Source: a virus
Length of the DNA: 29,371 bases
Virus record (IMG/VR): IMGVR_UViG_3300004369_000098
Span: 1-29,371 of that record
Strand: one strand, 5' to 3'
Within the stretch, counting starts at the first letter, position 1; every line of letters starts with the position of its first letter. Shown here piece after piece: positions 3,926 to 26,624 of this stretch. The notes beneath the pieces were generated by a model. That model was not told the origin of the DNA, ran no database searches, and worked only from the letters and a program-made list of their open reading frames with translations. A program made the translations under genes and the position numbers.

Positions 3926-6900
3926 ATGTCAGAAACAAGAGTAAAGATCGGTTCAATTATTGAGAATCAAGTACCTTCTTATGTTAGAGAAGAGTTTCCT
4001 CTTCTTGTGGAATTTTTATCTCAATATTATCAATCATTAGAATATCAAAGTGGTCCATCAGACATAATTCAAAATATTGATAAGTACGTCAAATTGGATA
4101 ATATTACCAATTTGATTGAATCGACTACTCTCACATCATTTGTAGAATTTTATGATAGTACAATAAATGTAGAATCTACTGCAGGATTTCCAGACACCTA
4201 TGGTTTAATCTTAATTGACAATGAGATTGTTACTTATAAATCAAAGACTTCAACTTCATTTAATGAATGTGTAAGGGGTTTTGTTGGAACAAGTTCATAC
4301 CACAACACCATCGAAACAGATGATCTGGTATTCCTCGATTCTAATGTCGATGAGCATGAGAGCGGATCTGCGGTATCCAATTTAAGCGTTATATTTTTAA
4401 AAGAGTTTCTAATAAAATTAAAAGGCCAAATTTCGCCAGGATTTGATAGAAAAGATCTTTATTCTGAAGTAAATGAATCTTTATTCTTAAAGCATTCAAA
4501 AGATTTTTATTCCTCAAAGGGAACTGACAGTTCTTTTAAAATTCTATTCAATGTATTGTATGGTGATACAGATTCTTCGGTAATAAAACCAAGAGATTAT
4601 TTAATTCAACCATCCGATGCACAATATTACATTACCAAAGATTTAGTTGTTGAAGCATTATCTGGAGATCCAAGAGATCTTGTTGGCTCAACTCTATATC
4701 AAGATGATGATGGATTTTTTGAGTCTGCAAAGGGAACGGTTTCTAAAGTAGAAAGAATTCTTAGAGGGGAAAAAGAGTATTTCGTAGTAAGTCTTGATTA
4801 CGATCAAGACAAAGATACGGATACCAACCAGGAACTCGGTGAGTTTACAATTCATCCTAAAACAAGGGCAACAAGCACAATAGGGATTGGCAAAACAACA
4901 ATCGATGTAGATTCTACAGTTGGATTTCCAGCATCTGGAAAACTTGTAGTAAACTCTGCAACTAACACCCAATTTTATATCGATTATTCGGATAAAACTA
5001 TTAATCAATTTTTAGATTGCTCCGGAATAACTCAAGAAATTTCTATCGGAAAAGAAATTTCTTTGGATTCATATGCTTATGCTTTTGTTGGAGTATCAAC
5101 ATCAAATCTTGTTACTGTTAGGGTAACTGGTGTTTTATCTGATTTACAAATTCTCGATAAGACATACTATTACGAGAAAAATGATACAATTCAAATCGAA
5201 ACTTTGGGATCAAAACTGAGTGACCACAAAGCAAATAATTGGTTTTTTAATGTATCAGGAAGATATGATGTAAAATCAGTAGAATTAATTGATATATCAA
5301 ACTATACGTATAAAATAAATTTATATGATGAGCACGATTTTGTCGTCGGAGATTCGATCACTATTATTTCTTCCGATAGTAGAGAATTCTATGGACAAAT
5401 AATACCAGAAAATATTACATCTATTCACCATTCAAGTGTTACTGGTTTTGATAATAAGACTTCATTTAATATTAGTGGACAAGGCGAGCTTAGTACAAAT
5501 AATTTCTATACTGTCAGAAAAGATGTAAAGAAAGTATCTACCACAAATTATTCTGAAATTGAAAAATATTCTGCGAATGTTCAGAATGTATATACTGATT
5601 TAAATTCTAATTTATATGTGGCATCCAATTCATTGCCAGCATATTACAATAATCCATTATCAATTATTGATAGATCTATTATTTTTTCTGGATCATTTTC
5701 TGGAACGGAATTAGTAATAGGTTCTCATAAGTTTATAACTGGAGATGCGATTGTTTACAATCCAACAGATGACTCAAATAAATTGGATCTTTTCCCCGGA
5801 ATTTATTTTGTTAAGGTAATTAATGGCACAACAATAAGTCTATCAAGAAGTTTAGAGAATATTTACACCGAAAATTATATCTCAGTATCCGGTACTGTAT
5901 CAAGTAATAAATTTTCTATACTCCAATTTAGCAACAGCGAATTAATTGAAGAAAGAGTAAAACCCCAGAAATTGATTAGAAAGTTGACAACTCCAGTCAA
6001 CGATAATTTAGACCACCAGACCCCCGTAGGATCGACTGGAATCTTCGTTAACGGCGTTGAACTGATAAACTATAAGACAAATGATTATATTTTCCATGGA
6101 CCAATTGAGAGGGTATCAACTACTTCTCCGGGAAGTGGATATGACGTTATCAATCCACCAGAATTAACAATTTCTGATGACTTGGGATCTGGGGCAACTG
6201 GAGTTGTAACTGTAACTGGTTCATTAAAAAGAGTTGATATTATTGATCCCGGTTTTGATTATCTCGAAGATCCAATTATAACAATTTCTGGTGGCGGTGG
6301 ATCTGGAGCTACCGTTAGAGCAAATTTGGTAGAATTTGAACATAGTTCCCAATTTAACTCCGAATCCACATCATTAAATGTCAATCTTACAAATGATACT
6401 ATTGGATTTGGTACATATCACAAATTTAGGGATTCTGAGGAGATTGTTTACAACCCTCAGGGTGGAACTGTGGTCGGTGGACTTTCCACGGGAGCAAAAT
6501 ATTACATATCTATTCAGGATGGATATACCGTTAAACTTCACAACACATTTAACGATTCTGCAGTAGGAATTAATACTATCAATTTAACTTCATTTGGAGG
6601 GGGCATTCATAAATTAGTTTCCACCGAAAGAAAGAAGAAAATAGGATCAATTTCTGTAGTAAGTGGTGGAAGTGGATATGTAAGTACCGGATCAAGCATT
6701 GCTTTTAATATTAAAGAAAGAATCGGAATTTCTACTTTATCTGGACAATCTTTTGGTGCAGTATTAAATCCGATTTTTAGAGGAGAAATCACATCAGTTT
6801 CTGTCACTTCGGGTGGTGATGGATATGGTAACGAAAATATTATTAATTACGACAAACAACCACAGTTTACACTTAACTCTGGTTCTGGAGCAGAAGTACT

Positions 6901-9900
6901 GCCAGTAATATCTGATGGAAGGATAAAGCAGGTATTTGTTACGAATGGTGGTAGTGGTTATAATTCCTCACCAGACCTTGTTATAAGCGATTCTGGGGGC
7001 GTTGGGGCTATTCTTTCACCAGTTGTTAGTGGTGGGCAATTAATTCAAGTAAATGTAATTTTTGAGGGAATTGGATATTCTGATGGATGCAATATTGATG
7101 TGATTGCAGCTGGATCGGGTGCGGCATTTGAAGCAAAAATTAGTTCTTGGAATATAAACAAAGTGGAAAGATTGATTTACTTCAATCAATTATCTGATGA
7201 TGATGGAATCATTCAAAAGTCTCATAAAGATGATTATGGACTTCAATATGGTCACGCATATGCACCAAGGAATTTAAGATCTGCAGTTCTTGCGGAAGAA
7301 TATGTAAATGAAGTTGCAATTTTTGTTCCAGACTTAAAAATTCTTTCTGGAGTAGAAATTGATTCTTCGGTACACTCACCAATAATTGGATGGGCATATG
7401 ATGGCAATCCAATTTATGGCCCATATGGATTTGATTCAAATGGAAATGTTAAGAGAATGGTATCTGGTTATGTACAATCTTTAAGTTCTACTAGACCAAA
7501 TACTCTACAATATCCAGTAGGATTTTTTGTTGAGGATTATATTTACACTGGATCTGGAGATCTTGATGAGCATAACGGAAAATTTGGACCAACTCCAGAA
7601 TATCCAGATGGAGTATATGCATATTTCTGCACCATAAACTCAACAACCGATTCTATCGGTCCATTCCAGTTCTATAGAAAACCAGTATTTCCATATGTAA
7701 TAGGAAATGCTTATAAATCAAAACCAATAGATTTTAATTTCTTATCAAATTCAAACCAAGATGAAATAGATATAAACAAAACTGAATGGAGTAGAAATAC
7801 TGCACCATATAACTTCACCTCATCAAGAAGTTATTATGACTTTGTTCTCGATTCCAATAAAATAAAGAAGCAATTATCAATTGTTAAAAACTCAACAAGA
7901 TCTGGAATAGATTCCATCGGAATTAAAACTGGTGGAACAAATTACCAAATTGGAGATCAAATAATCTTCAACAACACAAATACTGGTGGATTTGGAATTT
8001 CTGGAAAAGTATCTTTGATTGATGGTAAAGATATAACGAACATTGGTGTGACAACATCAACACTCACTGGTGTTCAGATGATTCCTCTTGCAGAATCTAA
8101 ACAGTTTGTTGGTTATGTGACGGATCCACATACTCTCATAAACAATCAATTAGTAACATTCTCAGCCTCAGGAATTAGTACAAGTGGAAAGATATCGGTT
8201 TTAAATAACAGATTACTACTTACAACTGGAATAGGATCTACCGGATATACTGGATTGGTCACTTATTTTAATGTAAGTGGAAGTCTCAGCAATATTCTAG
8301 AAAATGACATATACCAAATTCTTGATGAAGACATTAAGATTTTAAATGTAGACCCGACTTCATCTAGAATTAGAGTTTTACGTAGTTATAATGAAACGCA
8401 GGGGATAACTACAATATCATCTGGAATTGCATTAACTGAAAAAACCAGAAGAATCAATTTGCCTTTTGAAGTTTCATCTTTATCAAACAATTTAAAACTT
8501 GATAGGGAATATTATTTTGATCCTTCGGAATCTATTGGTATTGGAACGATTTCGGGCCCCGGAATAGGTTATACCTTAACATTTACAAATCCTGGAGTTG
8601 GACTTACTCAGATTAATATTCCAGTTGGATCCATATGGATCCCTAAGCATGGGTTAGAAACTGGAACGGAATTAACTTATTTTGATAATGGTGGAACGGC
8701 TGTTTCAATATCTACAGATGGCGTATCCAGTTATCAACTACAAAATAATTCTACAGTTTACGCAACTAAACTTGGGGATAATTTGATTGGAATTTCAACA
8801 ATTAAAGTTGGATTGGGAACGACAGGATCTTTTGTTGGAATTTCTACTACAGCATCTCTATTATATTTCACCAATGTTGGGTTAGGAAATTCGCATAGTT
8901 TTAAAACAAGCTATCAAAATACCCTCAAAGGAGAATTGACAACAAATTTAGTTACCGTTTCTACATCTTCCACTCATGGATTGAATGTTGGAGATTCTAT
9001 CAAGGTTTCCGTTTTACCAGGAATAATAACAAGTTTATATTCTGGTAATTACAATACAGTATCAGTTGCAAATACTCAGTTTTCTTATTCAATTTTAGAT
9101 TATCCAGAAGTTTCTTCTTATACTTCCTCCGATGGAGAACTTAAATATCAAACAACATCAAGAAGTGCCTATGGCCCCATTCATGAAATTTCGTTAAAAT
9201 CTAAGGGATTATCTTATAAATCTTTACCAGCAATATCCTCAGTACAATCTGGTGTTGGAACCGATGCAGTATTGATACCATATGGTAGAGATATTGGAAC
9301 AATCAATACAGTTGAATTGCAAGATATTGGTTTTGATTATCCTTCAGACCTTAGTTTAAGACCAACTGCAATCATACCTCAAATTTTAGAAGTAGAAAAT
9401 CTCGTTTCTTTTGATTATATTGGAATTAATTCTGTTGGAAGAAATTATAATATTGCCCCAGATCTGGTTGTAATTGATACCCTAACCAGACTTCCAAATG
9501 AGGAGGTAATTTTAGACTACAATCTTGGAGATTCTAATGTAACTATTTTAAAGAATGCTAAGAATCTTGATAGAAATACAACTACAATTTTCCCAGTAAA
9601 CAACGGTAATGGTGTTGGAATTAGTACTATACGATTTATTCCTTCATCTGAAGATGTTATTGTAACACTTGGATCAAGTTTTAGCAATGCTGCAGACTTC
9701 CCATTTGCAGTTGGTGACAAAGTTTTGATCGAAAATGTTAGCGTTGGTGTTGGATCTACTGCAAAGGGGTACAATTCTTCCTCATATGGATATGAATTTT
9801 TCACCATTGTAAATATAGATCCAAATATTGGTGGAATTGGAGCCACTGTTTCATATAATATTTCCGACAGACTTGGAAGTGGTGAAATAGTTGGAAATTA

Positions 9901-12900
9901 TGATCCAGTCAATTCTTATGGAAGAATAATACCCGAGAAAGATCTTCCAATATTTGATCCCCAGTATAAGGAAAATAACTTCTTTACTGGTGAAGGAGTA
10001 TTTTCACAAACTACATCAGGTAATATTATAAAATGGGATCCTTTCTCATTGCAAATGAAAGTTTCAACAAACAAAAATTTTGAAGTTGGTGAAACTATTA
10101 TTGGAGAGTCTTCAAAAACTGAAGCTCAAATTTTGAGAGCGATTTCTTTTGATTCAATATACAATGTCAAATCTTCTTCAATTGTTAAAAAAGGTTGGCA
10201 AAAAGAAACGGGATTCTTGAATAATGATCTTCAAAGAATTCATGACAATGACTACTATCAATACTTTGCATATTCTATAAAAACTAGTGTTCCATTTGAA
10301 ACTTGGGATAAAAATGTCGATGAATTAAATCACACTTCTGGATTTAAAAAGTTTGGCGATTTACAAATTCAATCATCAACCGAATCTGTTGGCATAGGAT
10401 CCACAGTTGATGCGGAAGTTAGTTCTATTGCAGAACTGGATTCTGTAATCAATACACATTGTAGAACAGACTTTGATATTGCTAGAGAAAATAATATAAT
10501 TATTTCTAATCAATATGCATCCAGTCAAGTAATATTTGATAATATAATTCTTCAGGATTACCTTGAATCTATCGGAAATAGAGTTCTGACTATTGATGAT
10601 CTTGCCCCACAATTTAATAGCAATCCAAGAACTACTCGTTTTACAAATATTGACACATTTAATCTTTCAAATAACAGATATAAAAAGTATATAACTTTTG
10701 TAAATGATTTGGTATATGCTGATGAAAATCAAGTAATGCTTGTATCATTGCTTCATGACAACGATTATGGATATCTAAATCAGTATGGAAAAATTTATAA
10801 TAATAATGATCTAGGATATTTTGATTTTAGTATTGCCGGAACGGAAGGAACTTTAGAGTTTCATCCAGTATTTTATGAAGAAAATAATTATAATATTTCA
10901 TTCTCATCATTATCAGTTGGCGACTTAACAACTTCCGTTGGAGAACAGAGTCTTGGCGATATCGTAAGTATTGCTTCTTCTTCAACAGTGCTTGCAGCAG
11001 GAACTTCAACAGCAACTACTGTTGTTGGGATAGCATCAACATATAGAGCATCCAAAATTTACGTTGTAGTTGGTGCTGAAGATGGATCTTACTATGAGGT
11101 TGATGAACTGGGCATTATCCACAATGATGTAGATGTTACATTTAATAACTATGGCCAATTATCCAATGATGATTTAACTTCCTTTGGATCAACTGGAATT
11201 GGTACATATCATGCATACTTGTCTGGTTCCGAATTGAAGGTTGATTTAACACCAAATGTTGGATTGGCGACAAATCATTATGTAAACACGATCAGAGTTT
11301 CTATTGCCAATACGTCTGCAGTTGGTGTTGGAACTTCCAATATGTTTGATAGTTTTGTTTCATCAAACTTTACAGATATTGCTGCGTCTGGATCGCCAAC
11401 TGCAATTACGGTGGCACAATTCCCATATGATTTTGATGCAGCATATTATATTGCGGTTATTGAAGATTTGACTAATTTAGAATATCAAATATCAGAATTA
11501 GTTGTTCTAAAGAATCAATCAAACGCATATGTTTCTGAATTTGGTTATGTTGAGACAAATGGAAATCTTGGCACATTTACTGTAGATATAATTGGTGATG
11601 ATACAGTATTACAGTTTACCCCAAATACAAGTATTGAAACTTCTGTAAGAATATTCCAGCAAGTGTTAACTTCAATACATAGTCACAATTATCCAACACA
11701 AATTTCTCTAAACAATGGATCAATAACCAGTGGACATGGATCTTATGAAGGTACTTTAGTCGCATCAAGAAAAACTTTCCAATTGACCCACGATGAGTTG
11801 CCAATCTTTGAAAGATATTTCCTTGGAAACGATTCCACAATAGTTGACGAAGATTCTGATCAATTAAAAATTCCATCACATTACTTTACTACTGGTGAAA
11901 AATTAACCTATGAATATACCGATTCCGACAGAGATAGTGGAAATGCTGTTGGAATTGCAACAACGACTATAACTGGTATTGGATCTACAGATAAACTTCC
12001 AAGGACATTATATGCTGTTAAAACAGATGATCTGTACTTAAAGTTTGCTGGATCTGCTGCTGATGCACTTTCAGCTCCACCAAATATTTTAGATATTACA
12101 AGTGTTGGAATTGGAACATCACACATATTAAAATCTAATGGACAAAATGCAAGATCAATAATTGCAATTGATAATGTAATTCAATCTCCAATTGTATCTA
12201 CCGCAATTACAACAACGGTTGGAACATATGTTGAGACTATTACAAATGTGATTACATTATCCGGAATTACATCATTCTTTAGTGGGGATTTGATCGATAT
12301 TGGTGGAGAAACTATGAGAATAGAAACTCTTGGGTATGGTGCAACAAATGTTGCTATTGTACAAAGAGGATGGCTTGGAACCGGTATTAGCACTCATGAA
12401 GTAGGATCATTAATTACAAAATTAGCAGGCAATTACAATATTAGTGGAAACACAATTAATTTTGTCACATCTCCTTGGGGACGAGTTCCATTTACAAATC
12501 CATCAAACAGACCAGATGAGCAAGATTATGTTGGTTTGGACACCGGTTCAACATTTAATGGTAGAGTTTTCTTGAAATCTGGAGATGTCAACAGTTCCGA
12601 GCATACTTATTTCTATAATAAAGTTTTTGATGATATCTCAGATTCCTTTAATGGATCAAATACTGATTTTAGATTAAGATCTAATGGATCCGATATTACT
12701 GGAATTAGTACAAGTAATGCAATTGTACTTGTAAATCAGGTTTTCCAAGGTCCTTCTAGATCAACTCTACCAGTTACTGTAGAAGGAAATTATAGTCTTT
12801 CGGAATCTTCCGGAATTACAACTATAACGTTTAATGGAAGTCAGTCACAATCTTACGATATCAATGCATCACAATTGCCAAGGAAAGGAATAATTGTTTC

Positions 12901-14983
12901 TGTCGGTTCAACTGCAGGATTTGGATATCAACCATTGGTTGCTGCTGGTGGAACTGCAACTGTTTCAATTGCAGGAACAATTAGTGCAATTTCTATTGGA
13001 AATAGTGGTTCTGGATACCGAGAAGGATTGCAAACGGTAAATGTTGGTGTGGCAACATTAAGTGTTGGAACTCCAAATATTGAATTTGTTGGAACTGCTG
13101 CAATTCAAGGTGGACATGTCGTAAGTATTGCAATCACAAATCCTGGATTTGGATATACATCAACAAATCCACCATTAGTATTCTTTGATTCTCCATTGTC
13201 ATATAGTAACTTACCACTTGTTTATAGTTCATCTTCACCAACAGGATTTGGAAGTGGGGCTACTGTTGATGTTATTGTTGGTCAAGGATCTAGTGTTATT
13301 GGATTTGAGATTAGAAACACGGGATATGCTTATGGTCAGGGAGAAATTCTTACCATTGGGGTTGGTGGAACAGTTGGAATTCCAACAAATTCTAGTTTGC
13401 CTTTTGAAGAATTCCAGATTTTAGTGGATAGAACTCACACAGATTCTTTTGCTGGTTGGTCACTCGGAGACCTTCAAGTTATTGATCCAATTGACTCTTT
13501 ATTTGACGGAGAAAGAAAGAGTTTCCAGATCAAGATAAACGATGTTCTAACTTCGATCAGAACACGACCTGGATCACAGATTGATATTCAAGCAACATTG
13601 TTGGTGTTCATCAATGATGTCCTTCAATTCCCCGGAAAGGGTTATCTTTTCCCAGGTGGAAATTTGATAACTTTCCCAGAACCACCAAAACAAGGAGATA
13701 CTTCAAAGATTTTATTCTATAAAGGAAATGATGAGGTCGATGTTATCCTTATTGATGTGTTAGAACCTGTAGAAATTGGAGATGATTTACAATTAATTGA
13801 TGATTCAATCTTCTTAACAGAAGAAAAGAGATTGGTAACAAGTATCCCAGCGAGTGATTATGCAGAGACGAGTATCTACTATAATCCAGGATTAAGCATT
13901 GGTGAGACTTATAGAAGACCAGTAACTTTATGTTATCAAACCGAAGATAAGATTATTAATGGTCAAGAAATTGGGAAGTCAAGAGTCATTTATGAACCAT
14001 ATATTCAACCATCATCAAATATTATCAATAGTCTTGGAATTACTTCTTCCGTTATTTTTGTTGAGAGTGTTAAGACCTTCTTTGATGCAGAAAATGAAAA
14101 TACGATTGGAAACAATAATTATAGAAAGATTGTAGTTACTTCTCAGGACTCTGTATCGGGGGCAGCTGCAACGGCAATTGTTTCTGCTGCAGGAACAATT
14201 ACATCATTTGCCATTTCTGATGGTGGTTATGGATATACAAGTTCCCCAGAAGTAACCGTTTCAAATCCAGTTGGTTTGGGAACAACCTACAGAGCTTCTG
14301 GATCTGCCACAATAACAAATGGAGTTGTAACTGCGATTGACGTTTCTGCTATTGGAAGTGGATACACATCTTCAAATCCACCACAAGTTTTAATAGAATC
14401 TCCAAGCGTAATATCAGAAGTAATAACCAACATTTCCTTTGAAGGTGATTTTGGTGTTATTACTGGCGTCAAGACAGATTCGGTTGCTGTTGCAACAACA
14501 GCATTAGTATTCGATTTGTTTATTCCAACAGACTCTTATTTACGAGATTTAGATATTAACTCTGTTGGAATTGCTACCACTGGAGTTTCTGGAATTACAA
14601 CTGGTTATTACTTTGTGGTTAAAAATTCAAATATTGGTGATGGTGTAACGTCCATTAATGAAGATGGAGAATCTGTCGGTATTGGAACATCCTTTATAGA
14701 TAATATTTACAAGGCTGTTGCGGTTTCTATTGCACAAACCGATGTTCCCGGAATTGGATTGACCTATGTTTCTCAAGTAACTGTAAGTCTTTCAGATTAC
14801 AATAATATTTCTGGAACTGGATTTAGTTCATTCTATGGAGAATATAGTTGGGGTAAAATTTCCAGTCTCAATAGAACAAATCCAAAATCTTTTGTAAATT
14901 ACAATAATGGTCTTGTGGGAATTTCGTCATCTCCAACTGTTCAGAGACTTCTTCCATTAAAACACCAAGATTATACCACATAA
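3926..14983 (+). CDS. gp7: Giant gp7-like baseplate wedge protein with YHYH-like domain and multiple repeat families, 3685 aa
   Basis: This 11 kb gene lies between gp6 and gp8, exactly where T4 gene 7 sits. Residues 1-300 carry the gp7 signature. A PSYVREEFPLLVEFLSQYY helix is followed by DFYSSKGTDSSFK (193 onward), which matches my recollection of T4 gp7 (DFYSTKG...), and then a VGSTLYQ strand region. T4 gp7 is only about 1030 residues and has this module near its C-terminus; here it is at the N-terminus and about 3,300 residues follow. The extension contains two RG/H modules near the start, clusters of GGSGY repeats (6109-7135, 12960-13380, 14185-14400), a YHYH-like domain (residues about 1095-1260), four HxFxTGExVxY units, three tandem 85-residue domains (10672-11671), and paired SFxG domains (12628-13750). 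There is no signal peptide. It probably forms the wedge core plus a large exposed decoration. The gp7 call is firm for the N-terminus, while the role of the rest is inferred. Confidence 0.85.
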   Translation: MSETRVKIGSIIENQVPSYVREEFPLLVEFLSQYYQSLEYQSGPSDIIQNIDKYVKLDNITNLIESTTLTSFVEFYDSTINVESTAGFPDTYGLILIDNEIVTYKSKTSTSFNECVRGFVGTSSYHNTIETDDLVFLDSNVDEHESGSAVSNLSVIFLKEFLIKLKGQISPGFDRKDLYSEVNESLFLKHSKDFYSSKGTDSSFKILFNVLYGDTDSSVIKPRDYLIQPSDAQYYITKDLVVEALSGDPRDLVGSTLYQDDDGFFESAKGTVSKVERILRGEKEYFVVSLDYDQDKDTDTNQELGEFTIHPKTRATSTIGIGKTTIDVDSTVGFPASGKLVVNSATNTQFYIDYSDKTINQFLDCSGITQEISIGKEISLDSYAYAFVGVSTSNLVTVRVTGVLSDLQILDKTYYYEKNDTIQIETLGSKLSDHKANNWFFNVSGRYDVKSVELIDISNYTYKINLYDEHDFVVGDSITIISSDSREFYGQIIPENITSIHHSSVTGFDNKTSFNISGQGELSTNNFYTVRKDVKKVSTTNYSEIEKYSANVQNVYTDLNSNLYVASNSLPAYYNNPLSIIDRSIIFSGSFSGTELVIGSHKFITGDAIVYNPTDDSNKLDLFPGIYFVKVINGTTISLSRSLENIYTENYISVSGTVSSNKFSILQFSNSELIEERVKPQKLIRKLTTPVNDNLDHQTPVGSTGIFVNGVELINYKTNDYIFHGPIERVSTTSPGSGYDVINPPELTISDDLGSGATGVVTVTGSLKRVDIIDPGFDYLEDPIITISGGGGSGATVRANLVEFEHSSQFNSESTSLNVNLTNDTIGFGTYHKFRDSEEIVYNPQGGTVVGGLSTGAKYYISIQDGYTVKLHNTFNDSAVGINTINLTSFGGGIHKLVSTERKKKIGSISVVSGGSGYVSTGSSIAFNIKERIGISTLSGQSFGAVLNPIFRGEITSVSVTSGGDGYGNENIINYDKQPQFTLNSGSGAEVLPVISDGRIKQVFVTNGGSGYNSSPDLVISDSGGVGAILSPVVSGGQLIQVNVIFEGIGYSDGCNIDVIAAGSGAAFEAKISSWNINKVERLIYFNQLSDDDGIIQKSHKDDYGLQYGHAYAPRNLRSAVLAEEYVNEVAIFVPDLKILSGVEIDSSVHSPIIGWAYDGNPIYGPYGFDSNGNVKRMVSGYVQSLSSTRPNTLQYPVGFFVEDYIYTGSGDLDEHNGKFGPTPEYPDGVYAYFCTINSTTDSIGPFQFYRKPVFPYVIGNAYKSKPIDFNFLSNSNQDEIDINKTEWSRNTAPYNFTSSRSYYDFVLDSNKIKKQLSIVKNSTRSGIDSIGIKTGGTNYQIGDQIIFNNTNTGGFGISGKVSLIDGKDITNIGVTTSTLTGVQMIPLAESKQFVGYVTDPHTLINNQLVTFSASGISTSGKISVLNNRLLLTTGIGSTGYTGLVTYFNVSGSLSNILENDIYQILDEDIKILNVDPTSSRIRVLRSYNETQGITTISSGIALTEKTRRINLPFEVSSLSNNLKLDREYYFDPSESIGIGTISGPGIGYTLTFTNPGVGLTQINIPVGSIWIPKHGLETGTELTYFDNGGTAVSISTDGVSSYQLQNNSTVYATKLGDNLIGISTIKVGLGTTGSFVGISTTASLLYFTNVGLGNSHSFKTSYQNTLKGELTTNLVTVSTSSTHGLNVGDSIKVSVLPGIITSLYSGNYNTVSVANTQFSYSILDYPEVSSYTSSDGELKYQTTSRSAYGPIHEISLKSKGLSYKSLPAISSVQSGVGTDAVLIPYGRDIGTINTVELQDIGFDYPSDLSLRPTAIIPQILEVENLVSFDYIGINSVGRNYNIAPDLVVIDTLTRLPNEEVILDYNLGDSNVTILKNAKNLDRNTTTIFPVNNGNGVGISTIRFIPSSEDVIVTLGSSFSNAADFPFAVGDKVLIENVSVGVGSTAKGYNSSSYGYEFFTIVNIDPNIGGIGATVSYNISDRLGSGEIVGNYDPVNSYGRIIPEKDLPIFDPQYKENNFFTGEGVFSQTTSGNIIKWDPFSLQMKVSTNKNFEVGETIIGESSKTEAQILRAISFDSIYNVKSSSIVKKGWQKETGFLNNDLQRIHDNDYYQYFAYSIKTSVPFETWDKNVDELNHTSGFKKFGDLQIQSSTESVGIGSTVDAEVSSIAELDSVINTHCRTDFDIARENNIIISNQYASSQVIFDNIILQDYLESIGNRVLTIDDLAPQFNSNPRTTRFTNIDTFNLSNNRYKKYITFVNDLVYADENQVMLVSLLHDNDYGYLNQYGKIYNNNDLGYFDFSIAGTEGTLEFHPVFYEENNYNISFSSLSVGDLTTSVGEQSLGDIVSIASSSTVLAAGTSTATTVVGIASTYRASKIYVVVGAEDGSYYEVDELGIIHNDVDVTFNNYGQLSNDDLTSFGSTGIGTYHAYLSGSELKVDLTPNVGLATNHYVNTIRVSIANTSAVGVGTSNMFDSFVSSNFTDIAASGSPTAITVAQFPYDFDAAYYIAVIEDLTNLEYQISELVVLKNQSNAYVSEFGYVETNGNLGTFTVDIIGDDTVLQFTPNTSIETSVRIFQQVLTSIHSHNYPTQISLNNGSITSGHGSYEGTLVASRKTFQLTHDELPIFERYFLGNDSTIVDEDSDQLKIPSHYFTTGEKLTYEYTDSDRDSGNAVGIATTTITGIGSTDKLPRTLYAVKTDDLYLKFAGSAADALSAPPNILDITSVGIGTSHILKSNGQNARSIIAIDNVIQSPIVSTAITTTVGTYVETITNVITLSGITSFFSGDLIDIGGETMRIETLGYGATNVAIVQRGWLGTGISTHEVGSLITKLAGNYNISGNTINFVTSPWGRVPFTNPSNRPDEQDYVGLDTGSTFNGRVFLKSGDVNSSEHTYFYNKVFDDISDSFNGSNTDFRLRSNGSDITGISTSNAIVLVNQVFQGPSRSTLPVTVEGNYSLSESSGITTITFNGSQSQSYDINASQLPRKGIIVSVGSTAGFGYQPLVAAGGTATVSIAGTISAISIGNSGSGYREGLQTVNVGVATLSVGTPNIEFVGTAAIQGGHVVSIAITNPGFGYTSTNPPLVFFDSPLSYSNLPLVYSSSSPTGFGSGATVDVIVGQGSSVIGFEIRNTGYAYGQGEILTIGVGGTVGIPTNSSLPFEEFQILVDRTHTDSFAGWSLGDLQVIDPIDSLFDGERKSFQIKINDVLTSIRTRPGSQIDIQATLLVFINDVLQFPGKGYLFPGGNLITFPEPPKQGDTSKILFYKGNDEVDVILIDVLEPVEIGDDLQLIDDSIFLTEEKRLVTSIPASDYAETSIYYNPGLSIGETYRRPVTLCYQTEDKIINGQEIGKSRVIYEPYIQPSSNIINSLGITSSVIFVESVKTFFDAENENTIGNNNYRKIVVTSQDSVSGAAATAIVSAAGTITSFAISDGGYGYTSSPEVTVSNPVGLGTTYRASGSATITNGVVTAIDVSAIGSGYTSSNPPQVLIESPSVISEVITNISFEGDFGVITGVKTDSVAVATTALVFDLFIPTDSYLRDLDINSVGIATTGVSGITTGYYFVVKNSNIGDGVTSINEDGESVGIGTSFIDNIYKAVAVSIAQTDVPGIGLTYVSQVTVSLSDYNNISGTGFSSFYGEYSWGKISSLNRTNPKSFVNYNNGLVGISSSPTVQRLLPLKHQDYTT
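4144..5060 (+). repeat. Two N-terminal copies of the 'VdstvGFp' module in the gp7-like protein
   Basis: Two similar units flank the gp7 core. The first (about 4144-4345) reads STINVESTAGFP, then an LIDNEIVTY strand, then CVRGFVGTSSYHN. The second (about 4877-5060) reads TTIDVDSTVGFP, then a diverged tail lacking the RG-T-H ending. The same unit recurs at 12235-12430 in this gene, at 22790-23010 in the DUF4815 protein and at 27391-27630 in gp15. Confidence 0.7.
6109..7135 (+). repeat. GGSGY repeat cluster A in the gp7-like protein
   Basis: At least five units of about 45-60 residues follow one another. Each has a strand, a turn of the form (G/P)GSGY or GGDGY, another strand, and a GSGA turn. 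Turns are seen near 6128 (PGSGY), 6667 (GGSGY), 6811 (GGDGY), 6946 (GGSGY) and 7067 (GIGY), with a further weaker PGFDY near 6248. The GGY/GSGA alternation suggests a stacked beta-hairpin or beta-solenoid. It ends just before the YHYH-like domain. Confidence 0.8.
7210..7710 (+). other. YHYH-like domain inside the gp7-like protein (about residues 1095-1260)
   Basis: HSPIIGWAYDGNPIYGPYG (residues 1150-1168) and LDEHNGKFGPTPEYPDG (1213-1229) are the two hallmark motifs of the YHYH protein domain, an uncharacterised domain usually seen in secreted or surface proteins. The segment where the family has its namesake YHYH reads YAYF here (from about residue 1231). The family resemblance is clear to me by eye; its biochemical role is unknown. 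Confidence 0.8.
10672..11671 (+). repeat. Three tandem copies of an approximately 85-residue domain
   Basis: Three consecutive units (about 10672-10930, 11042-11307 and 11429-11671) share one plan. It is a hydrophobic strand (KYITFVNDLVY; KIYVVVGAEDG; AYYIAVIEDL), then a SLLHDN, LGIIHND or LVVLKNQ strand, then YGxxxxNxDLGxF, then LxFxPx (FHPVF, DLTPN, FTPNT), and a closing strand. They are separated by Ser/Thr/Ala-rich spacers. Units 2 and 3 resemble each other most. Confidence 0.75.
12628..13750 (+). repeat. Pair of 'DSFxG...VxxNxVxQxP' domains flanking GGSGY cluster B
   Basis: Two copies of a strand-rich unit bracket a second run of GGSGY-type repeats. Copy 1 (12628-12830) reads ISDSFNGSNTDFRLRSNG and IVLVNQVFQGPSR. 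Copy 2 (13484-13750) reads IDSLFDGERKSFQIKIND and LVFINDVLQFPGKG, and ends ILFYKGNDEVDV. Between them are GSGY, FGYTS and GYAYGQG units (12960-13380). This kind of unit is common in phage fibre and baseplate proteins. Confidence 0.6.
14185..14400 (+). repeat. GGSGY repeat cluster C at the end of the gp7-like protein
   Basis: Two clear units occur, turning at GGYGYTSSPEV (near 14222) and GSGYTSSNPPQV (near 14353), separated by about 44 residues. They closely resemble the units in gp14 (GYGYTSLPQV, GYGYTVAPAV), which lie more than 11 kb away in a different gene. Confidence 0.8.
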
Positions 14984-14986
14984 ATA
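14979..14986 (+). promoter_or_regulatory. Candidate T4-type late promoter (CATAAATA) before gp8
   Basis: CATAAATA fits the NATAAATA late-promoter form. It overlaps the stop codon of the giant gene (TAA 14981-14983) and lies 16 bases before the gp8 ATG. It would give gp8 and the following genes a transcript independent of the 11 kb gene upstream. Confidence 0.6.
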
Positions 14987-15002
14987 CATAAAAAACTTTA
15001 AA

Positions 15003-16556
15003 ATGTCTGCAATTATAACAGATCAATTTAGAATCTCAAGTGCAAAGAATTTTGTTTCAGCAGCAAGTTCTTCTGATAATTCATATTATGTATTTGTGGG
15101 TCTTCCAAATGCTACGGACTATAGTCCGACTTGGAATGCCAATCCACCAGCACCAAAAGATAGTTTTGATGAAGAAAATTCGTACTGGGATACTGCAATA
15201 GCACTGAAAAAAATATCACCAGAGAATATAAAGCAAGTAGTTAGAAAAATAACATGGAGCTCTGGAACTACTTACGATATGTATCGTCATAATATAACGC
15301 GAACAAATACATCAAAACCATCTGGATCGACTAATTTATATTCTGCAAATTATTATGTGGTAAATAGCGATTACCGCGTTTATATTTGCATTCAAAATGG
15401 AACGAATCCAGAAAATCCAGAAGGAAGACCATCTCTTGATGAACCAACATTCACGGACTTAGAACCAAGATCTGCTGGGACAAGTGGTGATGGATATGTT
15501 TGGAAATATTTGTACACTATTGCCCCTAGCGACATTATTAAGTTTGAAACTTCCAATTTTATCCCCGTTCCTAAAAATTGGGAAACAAATGATGCGGATT
15601 CTGCTGTAAGAAATAATGCCGCAACCAGTGGCCAAATTAAAATTGTAACAATTAAAGACCGTGGAGTTGGAATTGGAACGGCAAATACAACATACACTAG
15701 AGTTCCAATTAAGGGTGATGGAAACGGTGCCGAAGCTACAATTATTATTAATAACAACTCTAAAGTAGAATCGATTACTGTTTCTAGTGGTGGTTCTGGA
15801 TATACCTATGGAACTGTAGATTTAATCGCAGGAAATGTTCCTACAGGAACAACATCACCAGATTTTGATGTAATTATTCCACCAAAAGGTGGACACGGTG
15901 CAGACATTTATAGAGAACTTGGTGCTAATAGAGCAGTTCTTTATGCAAGAATTGAAAATGACACCCAAAATCCAGATTTTATTACCGGAAATGAAATTTC
16001 TAGAGTAGGAGTTGTTGAAAATCCATATTCTTTTGGATCTAGTTCAATATTGACTGAAGATAAAGCAAGTGCTGTGTATGCGGTGAAACTTGTTGGTGCT
16101 GGTTATAGTACGGCAGTGTTTGAAGCAGATTCTTTGGTATCGCAAACAGTTGGTGTTGCTTCAACTGCTGTTGGTAAGGTGGTGTCATATGATCAAAATA
16201 CTGGAGTTTTAAAATATTGGCAGGACAGAACTCTTGCTGGATTCAATACTGATGGATCAAAGAATGTATCACCAATATATGGATTCAGATTAAATAGATT
16301 TACATCATCTCCTGGTGTCGGTGGAACGACATTGGTGCAGGGTGGAAGTATAAATTTAGCAATTGATGAAAACTTTAATGGCATATCAACCTCAATAAAT
16401 AGTAGGACATATTATTTTGGACAGAATTTTATTAATGGAGTGTCCAATCCAGAAGTTCAAAAATATTCTGGAAATATTATTCATGTAGATAATAGACCTT
16501 CCGTAACTAGATCGTCTAGTCAAAAAGAAGATATCAAGGTAATTTTGCAATTCTAA
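15003..16556 (+). CDS. gp8: Baseplate wedge subunit gp8 with a repeat-bearing insertion, 517 aa
   Basis: In T4, gp8 (334 residues) is a dimeric wedge protein bound to gp7 and gp10. Here the N-terminus (ITDQFRISSAKNFV), the central GDGYVWKYLYTIAPSD (about 162-177) and the C-terminus (VDNRPSVTRSSSQKEDIKVIL) match the T4 gp8 scaffold as I know it. T4 has GDGYVWEYLF and a similar MENRPPI tail. The extra 180 or so residues lie mostly between these anchors. They include a GGSGY unit (near 15788, about residue 262), a KGGHGADIYRELG stretch and an ExVxG-like unit (16123-16240, SQTVGVASTAVGKVVSY). There is a candidate late promoter upstream and six bases to the next gene. The start codon at 15003 is the first ATG and has no strong Shine-Dalgarno. 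Assignment is firm because both ends match. Confidence 0.9.
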   Translation: MSAIITDQFRISSAKNFVSAASSSDNSYYVFVGLPNATDYSPTWNANPPAPKDSFDEENSYWDTAIALKKISPENIKQVVRKITWSSGTTYDMYRHNITRTNTSKPSGSTNLYSANYYVVNSDYRVYICIQNGTNPENPEGRPSLDEPTFTDLEPRSAGTSGDGYVWKYLYTIAPSDIIKFETSNFIPVPKNWETNDADSAVRNNAATSGQIKIVTIKDRGVGIGTANTTYTRVPIKGDGNGAEATIIINNNSKVESITVSSGGSGYTYGTVDLIAGNVPTGTTSPDFDVIIPPKGGHGADIYRELGANRAVLYARIENDTQNPDFITGNEISRVGVVENPYSFGSSSILTEDKASAVYAVKLVGAGYSTAVFEADSLVSQTVGVASTAVGKVVSYDQNTGVLKYWQDRTLAGFNTDGSKNVSPIYGFRLNRFTSSPGVGGTTLVQGGSINLAIDENFNGISTSINSRTYYFGQNFINGVSNPEVQKYSGNIIHVDNRPSVTRSSSQKEDIKVILQF

Positions 16557-16562
16557 GAAATC

Positions 16563-19500: not shown

Positions 19501-22500
19501 CAGTAAATTCGTATAATAATTTTGACTATTGCGATATATCTCCAGTTAATGGACGTATTGCCAATAGTGATATTTTGGATGTTCGACCAAGGGTATCAGA
19601 ATATTCTGTTACTGTAGGATCTAGATCACCATTTGAATTCTTATCAAGATCATTCTCAGAGTCTCAAAATTCTGGAAGAAACATTCTAGCATCGGACGAG
19701 TCTATTCTCCTTTCCTTTGATCATTATCTCGGAAGAATTGACAGAATTTTCCTAACAAAGAGTGGTGCTCTGCAATTGGTTTCGGGAGATCCAGCAGAAA
19801 CTCCTAGACCACCAAAAGCTCTAGATGATTCGTTGGAGATAGCATCCGCTGTTTTACCACCATATCTTTGCAATGTTAAGGATGCATCTATCAATCTTCT
19901 TTCTCATAAGAGATATCAAATGAGGGATATCTCAAGACTTGAAGATAGAATTAAAAACTTGGAATCATATACAACATTAAATCTATTAGAGACTAATACT
20001 CAAGCATTGAGTATTAAAGATGTAAATGGTCTTGATAGATTTAAATCTGGATTCTTTGTAGATAATTTTAGAAACCTTAACGTACAAAATACAACTACTA
20101 GAATTAAAAACTCTATTGACCAAAAGAATCAAGAGTTACGTCCTGCAGCATATGTTACAGAAGTTGATTTACTGCTTGGATCAAAATCTTTAGTTGGAAT
20201 TGGAGACTCTGTAGATCCAAATGCAGATCCTAGATTTGTAACCGATCTTATTGGCAATAATGTAAAACGCACTGGGCAAGTTATCACTCTGGACTATGAA
20301 GAAGCATCTTTCATAGTACAACCATATGCAACAAGAGTTGAGAATGTAACACCATACTTGGTAACAAATTATGTTGGAAACATTGGATTAACACCGTCTT
20401 CAGATGTTTGGACTGATCAGGTTAGATTGGATGCTAGAGTAATAACACAAGATAACTTTACAGCTACTCAAGCACAACTAGTTGCTGAAGGATTTGATCC
20501 TCAAACCGGTCTTGGTCCGGTAAATTGGGGCGCTTGGGAGACAACTTGGACAGGATCTTCTACTTCACAAAGAGTAGAAAATTCTGGAGACGCAACCACA
20601 ACATTTACAACCACAACCACAACTCAAGAGCAAGTAAGAACGGGATCTCAATTACAACTTACAGAAGAAGTTAATACCACTTCATATGGTGATTCGTTAG
20701 TTTCTTCCGAACTTGCAACTTTCATGCGTTCGAGAAACGTTGAATTTGTTGGAAAACGTTTTAGACCATTTACCACAGTCTATGCATTCTTCGATGGAGA
20801 AGATGTAAATTCGTTTGTTATTCCAAAACTTCTTGAAATTAATATGGTATCTGGAATATTCCAGGTTGGTGAAACTGTTACTGGCACTTTCCCAGCATCA
20901 TCAACAAATACAAATGATGTTCCTGGAATTACTCCTACAGAAATTAAATTTAGAGTTGCATCATCAAACCATAAGTATGGACCATTTAATGATCCTACCG
21001 ACGTATATACCAGAAATCCATATAATCAAGAAGAATCTGGATTCTTAGCATCTTCGTATTCTGCAACTTCTACCATTCTTAATGTAGATATTTCAAGTCT
21101 TTCTGAGCAAACTCAGGGCGAATTCTTTGGAAAAGTTGCTCAAGGACTCAAATTGAAAGGTCTTACAAGTGGAGCGGAAGCTACAATTTCTAGCGTTAGA
21201 CTGGTAACTGATCATGTTGGTACTATTATTGGATCATATTTAATTCCAAATCCAAACGTACCAACAAACCCATCTTTTGAAACTGGTGTAAAGACCTTTA
21301 AATTGACAAATAGTTCATCAAATTCTTTAGTTCCAGGAACTGTTTCCACAGAAGGAGAAGCAACATATTATGCACAGGGTCTTTTAAACAATATTCAAGA
21401 AACTATTGTTTCAACAAGAAATCCATCCTTCGAATCTACAACTCTCACCGACTCCAGAACCACATCCAGTTCTTCAACGTCATCTAATACTACTGTAACT
21501 AGAATTCAACCAGTATTCATCACAAATACTGTTGTTGTTGAAGCTCCAGCACCACAAGTAGATCCTCTGGCACAATCATTTGCAATTCCAGAAGGAAGTG
21601 GTTTATTCGTAACCAAAATTGATTTGTACTTTAGATCAAAAGATGATGTACTTCCAGTTGTAGTACAACTTCGCCCGATGAAACTTGGATTACCAACTAA
21701 GCAAATTTATCCATTCAGTGAAGTTGTTATTGATCCACAGAATGTAAATATTTCTGAAGATGGAACTGCAGTTACAACAATATCTTTCCCATCTCCAGTG
21801 TACCTTAGAGGCGGACAAGAACATGCGGTTGTTCTTCTTTCCGAATCAACGTCATATGAAGTTTGGGTATCAAGGCTCGGTGAACCAGATATTACAACTG
21901 CTGGATTAGCAGAATCTCAGCAAATTTTTGTAACCGAACAACCACTTCTTGGTTCATTATTTAAATCACAAAATGCATCGACTTGGACTCCAAGCCAATA
22001 TGAAGATCTTAAGTTCTCACTTTACCAAGCAGTATTTACTGATCAAGTTGGTGATATTAATTTCTACAATCCAGAATTAAATATTGGCAACAAGCAAATT
22101 GCAAACTTGCTGAAGAATCCTCTTGATATGAATTCAAGAAGAATTCGCGTTGGACTTGGAACAACCGTAACTAGTGCCAATTTTATTGTTGGAACCACAG
22201 TATCTCAGCAGAATTCAACTGCAACTGGTAATTATGTCGGTGCTGCTGGGTCGATAACTGGCAATCTAACATTGACAAATGCAGGAATTGGATACTCTGA
22301 TGGTTCGTATAATGGAGTTTCTCTGACGAATATTACTGGATCTGGTGTTAATGCCACAGCAAATATAACAATTTCTGGAAATGTTGCCACTGCGGCAACT
22401 ATTTCTTCTGGTGGTTCCGGATATAGTGTTGGAGACGTTCTAAGCGTTTCTAATCTTAATGGAAGTACACTTGGATCAAATCTAAGATTATCTGTTGGTG

Positions 22501-24014: not shown

Positions 24015-24016
24015 TT

Positions 24017-24250
24017 ATGAATACAAAATTTTCTAAGGTTGAGGGTTATAGTAGTTTAATTCGAGACAACTCAACAAATGCTATTCTCAATACAAATATG
24101 AATGACTATCAGAACTACAAAAACTTAAAAAAGTCAAGGGAATCGGAAGGACAAAAACTTCAGAATCTTGAAGATGATATGACTAGAATGAAAAGTGATA
24201 TTGATGAAATTAAAAATCTTCTAATGGTACTTACTTATGGATCCAAATAA
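24017..24250 (+). CDS. Small coiled-coil hypothetical protein, 77 aa
   Basis: The gene starts two bases after the giant gene ends and overlaps the next by 14 bases. The N-terminal third reads FSKVEGYSSLIRDNSTNAILN, a polar, loop-like stretch. From about residue 38 the protein becomes a strongly charged heptad-like helix (KKSRESEGQKLQNLEDDM and on to IKNLLMVL), which is probably a coiled coil. Proteins of this form occur beside neck genes in cyanomyoviruses, without a named function. A role in linking or trimerising a virion component is plausible in place of T4 wac (fibritin, also coiled-coil and also beside gene 13), but sequence similarity to wac is not visible, so this is only a positional idea. 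Confidence 0.8.
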   Translation: MNTKFSKVEGYSSLIRDNSTNAILNTNMNDYQNYKNLKKSRESEGQKLQNLEDDMTRMKSDIDEIKNLLMVLTYGSK

Positions 24251-24431
24251 AATTTTACTTGAGAATCTCAATAAATCTTTTGAATATGAAAGGATTGCTC
24301 GTGATATAGATAGTATAAGTGATATTAGTGAATTGAGAAATCTTGCTAAATCATACTCAAAATTATACTTGAAGCAACAAGAAGTTTTACTTGAACTCTC
24401 ATGGCCCAACCCAGCACAAGACAAGAACTGA
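24237..24431 (+). CDS. Small helical hypothetical protein, 64 aa
   Basis: The start overlaps the 77-codon gene by 14 bases and the end overlaps the gp13 start by 31 bases, so the gene is squeezed between two others. The product (MDPNKILLENLNKSFEYER... LAKSYSKLYLKQQEVLLEL) is helical, charged and without membrane segments. The amphipathic pattern runs through the whole frame and is unlike a random shadow frame, and overlapping small genes are common here, so I regard it as real. Codon use is like its neighbours. No family is recognised. No strong ribosome binding site is seen; translational coupling with the upstream gene is likely. Confidence 0.7.
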   Translation: MDPNKILLENLNKSFEYERIARDIDSISDISELRNLAKSYSKLYLKQQEVLLELSWPNPAQDKN

Positions 24432-25237
24432 TTGATTATTGTAAAAGAAAACTGGGATATCCAGTTTTAGAAATCAATGTTGCCGATGAGCAAATTGAAG
24501 ATCTTGTCGATGATGCAGTTCAATACTTCCAAGAGCGCCATTTTGATGGTGTCTATCAGACATACATGAAGTATCAGATCACTCAAGATGATATTGATAG
24601 AGGAAGAGCAAAATCTGGTGGAGTTGGTATAACTACTACAACAGTATCAGAAAATCTTGGCAATAGTACTTCATTCCAATATGAAGAGAATGGAAATTAT
24701 CTTCCCGTCCACCCTTCCGTGATTGGGGTTAATAAGATTTTCAAATTTGATGGTGAGAACACTCTTGCCAGCAATATGTTTAGTGTAAAATATCAGTTAT
24801 TCTTAAATGACATTTATTATTGGGGTTCGCTTGAACTTTTAACTTATGCAATGACAAAAACTTATCTTGAAGACATTGATTTCATGTTGACAACAGATAA
24901 GCAAATTAGATTCAATAAGAGACAAGATAGATTATATCTCGATATTGATTGGGCAAGTGTTAAGGCTGGTCAATATATTGTGATTGATTGTTATAGACTA
25001 TTGGATCCATCAACGTATGATAGAGTCTGGAATGATTCGTTTATTAAGCCATATTTGACAGCATTGATCAAGCGTCAATGGGGACAGAACATGATGAAGT
25101 TTACTGGAGTTAAACTCCCAGGAGGAGTAGAACTCAACGGTAGACAAATGTACGATGATGCACAGAAAGAGTTGGATGCGATTCTGGAGAAAATGTCCAG
25201 TACTTATGAGTTACCACCTCTGGACATGATAGGATAA
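24401..25237 (+). CDS. gp13: Neck protein gp13
   Basis: This 278-residue protein corresponds to T4 gp13 (309), which with gp14 forms the neck that closes the DNA-filled head below the portal and receives the finished tail. The N-terminus (STRQELIDYCKRKLGYPVLE, then DEQIEDLVDDAVQYFQERHF) is the diagnostic helix-rich segment of gp13-like connectors, including a QYFQERHFDGVY motif near residues 41-52. A central aromatic region (DIYYWGSLELLTYAM) and a C-terminal helix (KRQWGQNMMKFTGVKLPGGV) complete the family pattern. The ATG at 24401 overlaps the preceding gene by 31 bases and gives the family-typical N-terminus. Four bases separate it from gp14, as in the T4 order 13-14-15-16. Confidence 0.95.
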   Translation: MAQPSTRQELIDYCKRKLGYPVLEINVADEQIEDLVDDAVQYFQERHFDGVYQTYMKYQITQDDIDRGRAKSGGVGITTTTVSENLGNSTSFQYEENGNYLPVHPSVIGVNKIFKFDGENTLASNMFSVKYQLFLNDIYYWGSLELLTYAMTKTYLEDIDFMLTTDKQIRFNKRQDRLYLDIDWASVKAGQYIVIDCYRLLDPSTYDRVWNDSFIKPYLTALIKRQWGQNMMKFTGVKLPGGVELNGRQMYDDAQKELDAILEKMSSTYELPPLDMIG

Positions 25238-25241
25238 GAAT

Positions 25242-26624
25242 ATGGCATTAAATCCCTTTTTTCTTCAAGGTTCAAAAACTGAACAATCATTAGTTCAAGA
25301 TTTGATTAATGAACAACTCCGAATGTATGGTGTTGAGATATATTATATTCCAAGAAAATATATAACAAAAAATAGTGTCATAAGGGAAGTTATAGAATCA
25401 AATTTTGACGAAGCACATCCACTTGAAGCTTATGTAAATACATATGATGGGTATGAAGGACAGGGAACAATACTTTCGAAATTTGGAATTCAACCATTAA
25501 CCGACTTAACAATTACAATCTCAAAAGAAAGATTTGAAAATTATATTGTACCACTTATTCAAGAAAAGCCCGATATTGAATTTTCTTCTAGACCAAAAGA
25601 GGGAGATTTAGTTTACTTTCCTCTTGGCGATAGGCTATTTGAAATTAAATTTGTTGAGCACGAACAACCATTTTATCAATTGCAAAAGACATACGTCTAT
25701 GAATTGAAGTGTGAACTCTTTAGATATGAAGATGAAGAACTTAGCACAGGAGTTTCTGAAATTGATGATAGTATCCTAACAGAAGGATATACTCAGACCT
25801 TAACTTTGGTTTCATCTGGAACTACTGCAACTGCAATTGCAGGAATAGTAAATGGTGGTGTAAGATTAATCACCGTTACAAATAGAGGATATGGATATAC
25901 TTCACTTCCACAGGTTGCAATTTCTTCTGCACCATCTAGTGGATTAACTGCAGTTGGAGTTGCAACATTTATTGATAATATTGTAGATTGCAACGGAACA
26001 CCATCTAATAAAGTTCAGGGAGTTGAAGTTATAAATCCTGGATATGGATATACTGTTGCTCCCGCAGTCGTATTCAATGGCGGTGGAGGCGCTGGAGCAG
26101 CTGCAACAGCAACAATTGGAGATGGTGTAGTTGGTATAATCACAGTTTCTTCTGGCGGTAGTGGATATGCTACTGCACCTATTGTAGCGATTTCTACAGC
26201 ACCAATTGGTGGTATCGATGCGACAGCAAGAGCGTATATCAATTCTGTAGGAATTGTTACTGCAATAAGAATTACAAATGCTGGTGCTGGATATACGGAA
26301 GCACCAACAATCACTATTGAGACACCAACTTCATCTGGAGTTGGAACCTTCATACAAAATGAAACTGTCACAGGAAGTATTAGTGGAACAACAGCACTTG
26401 TAAAATCTTGGAGTGGTGTTACATATGAACTTAATGTTTATAAAATTGATGGAAGTTTTATAAATGGAGATGTTATAACTGGAGCAGCATCATCAGCATC
26501 TTATAAATTAAGAGCATATACATCCGACGATAATGTTGATGCATATGCAGATAATGATAATATTGAATCTGAAGCGGATTTGATATTGGACTTTAGTGAG
26601 ACAAATCCATTTGGTACTCCATAG
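25242..26624 (+). CDS. gp14: Neck protein gp14 with a large GGSGY-repeat insertion, 460 aa
   Basis: Residues 1-180 (MALNPFFLQGSKTEQSLVQD, then LRMYGVEIYYIPRKYI, then GDRLFEIKFVEHEQPFYQLQ and YELKCELFRYEDE) match the gp14 neck protein, which sits between gp13 and the sheath terminator. T4 gp14 is 256 residues. Here the conserved tail IESEADLILDFSETNPFG lies at the very end, and about 240 residues are inserted before it. The insert has four GGSGY-type units (turns near 25884, 26039, 26154 and 26283) and an ExVTG unit (26350-26510). A good ribosome binding site, AGGA (25231-25234), precedes the start by seven bases. The insert probably projects from the neck surface; that is inference. A 47-base gap with a weak late-promoter-like TTAAATA (26643-26649) follows. 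Confidence 0.93.
   Translation: MALNPFFLQGSKTEQSLVQDLINEQLRMYGVEIYYIPRKYITKNSVIREVIESNFDEAHPLEAYVNTYDGYEGQGTILSKFGIQPLTDLTITISKERFENYIVPLIQEKPDIEFSSRPKEGDLVYFPLGDRLFEIKFVEHEQPFYQLQKTYVYELKCELFRYEDEELSTGVSEIDDSILTEGYTQTLTLVSSGTTATAIAGIVNGGVRLITVTNRGYGYTSLPQVAISSAPSSGLTAVGVATFIDNIVDCNGTPSNKVQGVEVINPGYGYTVAPAVVFNGGGGAGAAATATIGDGVVGIITVSSGGSGYATAPIVAISTAPIGGIDATARAYINSVGIVTAIRITNAGAGYTEAPTITIETPTSSGVGTFIQNETVTGSISGTTALVKSWSGVTYELNVYKIDGSFINGDVITGAASSASYKLRAYTSDDNVDAYADNDNIESEADLILDFSETNPFGTP
25810..26510 (+). repeat. GGSGY tetra-repeat plus ExVTG unit in gp14
   Basis: Four units turn at GYGYTSLPQV, GYGYTVAPAV, GGSGYATAPIV and GAGYTEAPTI, spaced about 38-52 residues apart and each followed by a Gly/Ala-rich stretch. 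They are the most regular copies in the window. The trailing unit (NETVTGSISGTTALV, then GSFINGDVITG) is an ExVTG module. Confidence 0.85.

Follow-up and report, generated by a model that had tools for sequence, protein, structure and literature searches.

Four structural proteins of this virus, a gp7-like protein, gp8, a DUF4815 protein and gp14, carry the same small beta-strand repeat, recognisable by a GGSGY motif. The repeat is apparently a common, uncatalogued building block, and its occurrence in tandem arrays of even number is a new result. We consider the chances slightly better than even that pairs of these units close into six-stranded domains, inserted at surface loops as accessory surface modules.

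The GGSGY unit in neck and baseplate proteins

The window, an entire IMG/VR record of 29,371 bases, comes from a cyanomyovirus (Kyanoviridae). The closest isolate found was Synechococcus phage B23, with a gp14 that is 58% identical. Comparison with B23 and Pfam placed the gene starts at 1609 (gp25), 2011 (gp6), 3926 (gp7-like), 15003 (gp8), 16563 (DUF4815), 24401 (gp13), 25242 (gp14), 26672 (gp15) and 27670 (gp16). The gp7-like gene of B23 (L099:7909-19688) is annotated as two overlapping ORFs, at 125908-134445 and 134442-137687 of its record, against the single 3685-aa ORF of the window. The units and the one Pfam domain beside them are located as follows.

6092..6307, + strand: gp7 units 1 and 2, one pair (aa 723-756 and 757-794; HMM 22.0 and 31.6 bits)
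6635..7084, + strand: gp7 units 3 to 6, a probable run of four (aa 904-921, 952-970, 989-1027 and 1031-1053; HMM 9.1, 12.4, 39.5 and 4.3 bits, the last weak)
7355..7642, + strand: gp7 YHYH domain (aa 1144-1239; Pfam PF14240, 77.9 bits)
12944..13195, + strand: two gp7 units (aa 3007-3032 and 3056-3090; HMM 14.0 and 31.7 bits)
14162..14404, + strand: gp7 C-terminal pair (aa 3413-3452 and 3457-3493; HMM 37.0 and 26.8 bits)
15624..15815, + strand: gp8 pair, a degenerate GVGIG unit (aa 208-226) and a GGSGY unit (aa 243-271; HMM 0.2 and 23.0 bits)
22239..22466, + strand: DUF4815 pair, a weak GIGY unit (about aa 1893-1930; by eye, -0.7 bits with the gp14-unit HMM) and a GGSGY unit (aa 1931-1968; 16.5 bits)
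25827..26339, + strand: gp14 run of four (aa 196-234, 256-285, 286-320 and 327-366; HMM 40.2, 33.6, 30.5 and 43.5 bits)

The YHYH domain adjoins the run of units at aa 904-1053 of gp7. Degenerate outer copies in gp7 are suggested, by eye, by GFGY at aa 2998 and GYAY at aa 3131.

A first HMM was built from the four gp14 units only and run against six window proteins. It gave five matches in gp7 (14.6, 17.9, 15.0, 15.0 and 21.8 bits) plus weaker ones, and scored 17.3 bits in gp8 and 5.3 bits in the DUF4815 protein, whilst the best score from 200 shuffled sets of the same proteins was 6.6 bits. The DUF4815 protein was detected only after the HMM was iterated. With a broader HMM of 547 non-redundant units, gp7 contained nine units of at least 9 bits together with weak ones, gp14 contained four, DUF4815 one at 16.5 bits, and gp8 one strong unit and one at background (0.2 bits, residues 208-226).

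These matches bear out the claim of the first-pass annotation that one homologous module is common to the four proteins: the gp14-derived model reaches gp7 and gp8 above the shuffles, and DUF4815 passes with the broader model. Its coordinates were correct to within a few residues, and its counts of at least nine units in gp7 and four in gp14 hold. Only one unit had been claimed for gp8; one is indeed strong, but two are visible by eye, the second (GVGIG) going unscored by the HMM here. In gp8 orthologues, the unit at the position of this GVGIG copy scores 22-24 bits. For DUF4815, where two had been claimed, one unit is solid and the other (GNLTLTNAGIGY) is weak.

The unit consensus is ATATATISGGxVTSITITNGGSGYTSAPTVTISGGGGSG, with G at position 21 in 100% of the profile and Y at position 24 in 98%. 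It is most improbable that these are low-complexity stretches rich in G, S, T and V that score alike by composition. The Gly-rich connectors are compositionally simple, but the 200 shuffled sets peak at 6.6 bits, and shuffled controls give 0 matches at 12 bits against 432 and 355 real units. The near-invariant G and Y and the confident gp14 model also argue against it.

The HMM was then iterated across the window and 12 isolate loci, shuffled decoys scoring no more than 4.7 bits after the first round. It located gp14 units in 11 of the 13 phages, the exceptions being S-SM1 and MC09. In gp14 of these two the block is absent and the flanks align. The same search found units in gp8, gp7, DUF4815 and fibre-like proteins across Kyanoviridae. 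Over 256 loci there were 1337 matches (gp14 559, gp7 464, gp8 117, DUF4815 84, other 113), proportions that are biased by the fetching of loci through gp14 or gp8. T4-type proteins lack the unit, in line with the claim for T4 gp7, gp8 and gp14: it was missing from Straboviridae gp14, and a profile search of the PDB matched no T4 chain.

Sequence searches of NCBIfam, Pfam and the PDB (the last by single sequence and by profile) returned no family for the unit. The best Pfam match to a two-unit consensus was Calycin_like at E 0.028, far below the cut-off, and no Ig family was matched. A unit-rich ORF with 14 units (L292) had no Pfam match, nor did Pfam report a family for the unit block of any protein examined. 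Searching literature text for the motif letters gave nothing relevant, in a coverage that leaves out most subscription journals.

Other modules were observed in the same proteins. In phage S-SSM7, gp14 (L005:20001-22289) has a Laminin_G_3-like domain between GGSGY units (E 7.6e-6; 26.6 bits, just below the cut-off of 27.6), making it a neck protein with a lectin-like domain. A second recurring module, with the signature GExVxGxxSGAxAxVxxW, lies at 26367-26543 of the window (gp14 aa 376-434), at about aa 2034-2068 of gp7 and at about aa 1424-1444 of DUF4815. It is strong in gp14 orthologues and scores 34.9 bits in S-SM1 VrlC/DUF4815 and 19.9 bits in S-SM1 gp7, and is weaker in the gp7 and DUF4815 of the window (8.7 and 9.7 bits). 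In structure it probably corresponds to residues 766-845 of 9f4a_A0, a baseplate-interface chain of a Klebsiella phage.

Descent of the units across genes

The first-pass annotation had attributed the shared unit to intragenomic copying. That the same module occurs in four neighbouring genes favours such an origin, in which a unit that originated in this lineage was recently copied among adjacent baseplate and neck genes. The units group by gene and position, however, and not by genome. For every window unit the nearest relative was in the same gene of another phage (66-96% identity), against 29-61% for other genes of its own genome. On a tree of 108 units, poorly resolved with its 39 columns, gene labels changed 24 times compared with 56.9 when shuffled, and genome labels changed 88 times.

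Cross-gene likeness was the same within genomes as between genomes for gp7-gp8, gp7-gp14, gp8-DUF4815 and gp14-DUF4815. A small within-genome excess was found for the best gp8-gp14 pair (0.436 vs 0.417, p = 0.001) and for pairs of gp7 with fibre-like ("other") proteins, and a marginal one, on the mean only, for gp7-DUF4815 (p = 0.037). These count in favour of copying, and may also reflect clade structure, for which the permutation does not control. Duplication inside gp7, likewise a point in favour of copying, is clearly visible on the tree (a clade of window and B23 units, support 98).

Recent copying between genes is distinctly unlikely and already largely refuted by the grouping by gene and position across genomes, the lack of excess for the remaining gene pairs and the occurrence of the unit in unrelated phages and cells. 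On sequence comparison, the spread of the unit among genes is ancient, with position-specific descent. As units cluster by gene across genomes, they were in place before these genera separated. Given its presence in unrelated phages and cells as well, the module could equally well have come by horizontal spread as by copying within the genome.

Even-numbered arrays and the predicted fold

In the cellular set, 44 arrays had two units, three had three, 23 had four, one had five, 12 had six and three had eight. Considering only non-redundant cellular proteins with at least three units, 38 were even and 4 odd (p = 2.8e-8), and over all sets there were 106 even and 48 odd (p = 1.7e-6), both values assuming independent proteins. 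Taken alone, the cyanophage set gave a weak parity signal (48 even, 34 odd, p = 0.075), partly because degenerate units were missed. That of the viral set, in which weak units easily escape detection, was borderline (p = 0.049). The query that collected the genome and viral sets was a two-unit consensus, which depletes single units but not odd runs of three or more. Counting strong and weak units together, the window fits an even number throughout: gp8 and DUF4815 have two each, gp14 has four, and gp7 has two, four, probably four, and two.

The two members of a pair are distinguishable. In runs of two, 94% of second units had a match to strand 1 as against 44% of first units, and the second unit is followed by an Ala-rich stretch resembling strand 1. 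First units are also more like first units than like second units. Because arrays are even, first units mostly lack strand 1 and the Ala-rich stretch follows the second unit, we infer from these sequence patterns that two units make up one six-stranded domain, permuted as 2-3-1-2-3-1, with its ends close together. Even arrays could instead stem from duplication by pairs, without a paired fold.

Each unit is a three-stranded beta repeat of about 39 residues, and two successive units most likely form a single six-stranded domain of about 75-80 residues. Its order would be strand 2, GxGY turn, strand 3, Gly-rich link and strand 1, repeated once. Because a tight turn joins strands 1 and 2 inside arrays, the final strand 1 could pair with the first strand 2. 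The ends of the domain would then meet, so that it could be placed in surface loops or flexible tails and leave the host protein undisturbed.

Structure prediction supports the beta-rich character that had been proposed for the unit. The AF2 model of gp14 (67 sequences) had a mean pLDDT of 74.8, rising to about 80-94 over the units (aa 190-370), with three strands per unit. The gp8 model was poor overall (pLDDT 53), but its units reached 65-83 and showed the strand order seen in gp14. Residues 3-173 of gp14 match PF11649 (104.9 bits, cut-off 25), and the core of the model matches T4 gp14 (9lu4_M; VIA Z 11.9, rmsd 3.3, 126 residues). A further VIA match, to 9f4a_A0 (Z 8.2, rmsd 2.1, 72 residues), has a range of about aa 181-428, of which only the ends are given. 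In the model, a small barrel appears to be built from the sequences flanking the block (aa 181-190 and 375-429). Reading the match range together with the S-SM1 alignment, the unit block would sit in one of the loops of the barrel. With the whole gp14 model as query, Foldseek and VIA matched the T4 gp14 core and the small barrel, not clearly the unit block. T4 gp14 forms a hexamer in which the final 80 residues, beyond the core, are disordered (PMC12270204); a block at that place would therefore probably be outside the channel gate.

Carriers beyond cyanophages and proposed role

Searching with the consensus pair also matched coliphage tail proteins. In ECO1230-10 the carrier is the tail sheath (PF04984, PF17482), whose two units span aa 147-216. 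The R2 pyocin sheath aligns on either side of ECO1230-10 aa 144-225 with zero residues between, indicating a clean insert, and the P2 FI sheath, compared with that of ECO1230-10, is without it. Both for gp14 and for the sheath, the unit is thus present as an insert in unrelated hosts and absent from relatives of each. Among IMG/VR contigs, T4-type sheaths have four units directly after the Gp18_domIII_N match (L412), and a baseplate wedge protein (L417) and other ORFs also carry units. An ORF of Nostoc foliaceum (L308:2861-4972) combines phage-sheath domains with six units, and is perhaps the sheath of a contractile injection system. Secreted-looking bacterial and archaeal carriers include multicopper oxidase-like, GH64 glucanase, dockerin and FN3 proteins, and long cellular arrays reach 18 matches in one ORF.

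The sheath of Aeromonas phage HJ05 (L261:601-2205) was rejected as a carrier, its insert being unrelated and non-GGSGY. This different insert lies in the region of the ECO1230-10 units, indicating that the sheath loop takes alternative inserts. A phage ORF family (L343, L342, L370 and similar loci) of about 750 aa has the motif KxFKGLNTKANRTAI near its start and 4-6 units at about aa 150-355; L343, the sole member tested, had no Pfam match.

Our confidence is evenly balanced on the broader proposal that a cosmopolitan, uncatalogued beta-domain, made of two GxGY repeats and with its ends close together, works as a plug-in surface module of general use. Its hosts would be cyanophage neck and baseplate proteins, unrelated phage sheaths, a cyanobacterial sheath-like protein (possibly of a contractile injection system) and enzymes secreted by bacteria and archaea. 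In this phage, one to several domains would be set into gp14, after its T4-like core, into the wedge proteins gp7 and gp8, and into the DUF4815 protein. They probably act as accessory surface modules, touching the cell surface or adjacent virion proteins through many weak contacts and serving as arms for other domains, YHYH in gp7 and laminin-G-like in S-SSM7 gp14. We think weak multivalent contact the most likely role and arms for the YHYH and LamG-like domains the second. Extra domains of tail sheaths lie away from the tube, and a part in adhesion or stability has been proposed for them (PMC9230969). From the insertion sites and natural presence or absence, a decoration role is plausible, and we infer a closed fold for the pair, exposure on the virion and a binding role. 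T4 has six gp14 and several gp7 and gp8 per particle; at such copy numbers the phage would bear dozens of these domains.

The units could alternatively be rigid or elastic spacers, an open beta-solenoid stalk that solely extends and orients attached domains, as their position flanking the LamG-like domain and adjoining YHYH and the arrays of up to 18 matches in cellular ORFs would allow. We regard this as unlikely, given that many carriers have two units with no extra domain between them (ECO1230-10 sheath, S-RIM2 gp14) and that a solenoid stalk does not predict even counts. Similarly doubtful is that the units cement adjacent virion proteins together and are needed for particle stability: the gp14 of S-SM1 and MC09 manages without the block, and secreted-looking cellular proteins also carry the unit. 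Such a role would nonetheless suit carriers that are neighbours in the neck or baseplate operon. It has also been proposed for extra sheath domains (PMC9230969).

If surface modules are the correct reading, one module would connect phage virions with secreted bacterial enzymes. The accessory domains known from phage virions usually go under the description Ig-like, and the unit would add a second, unrelated-looking and very widespread class, marked by the GxGY signature and the even-number rule. The annotation of many 'virion structural protein' ORFs would benefit from such a class. Natural pairs with and without the insert, gp14 of S-RIM2 vs S-SM1 and the sheath of ECO1230-10 vs P2, are available for testing decorations.

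The closest parallel is with the Ig-like accessory domains of phage virion proteins, as in tail sheaths of types 2 and 3 (PMC9230969), which are likewise promiscuous beta-domains on the tail and sheath proteins of phages that are unrelated, dispensable to judge by their distribution and probably engaged in weak surface binding. Here, by contrast, two GxGY repeats joined by a Gly-rich link make up the module, and in sequence comparison none of the Ig families in Pfam reaches its cut-off over the units. The BACON domain of crAssphage (PMC6949934) is also a small domain repeated in tandem in a phage protein, a parallel by analogy. The window gp14 shares with the T4 neck protein both family and fold over residues 3-173, but has a four-unit block (aa 196-366) in the C-terminal region that is disordered in the in-vitro structures of T4. 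In the same manner, carriers related to T4 gp8 (PF09215) and to Phage_sheath_1/1C (PF04984, PF17482) keep these family domains and add one or more inserted pairs of units.
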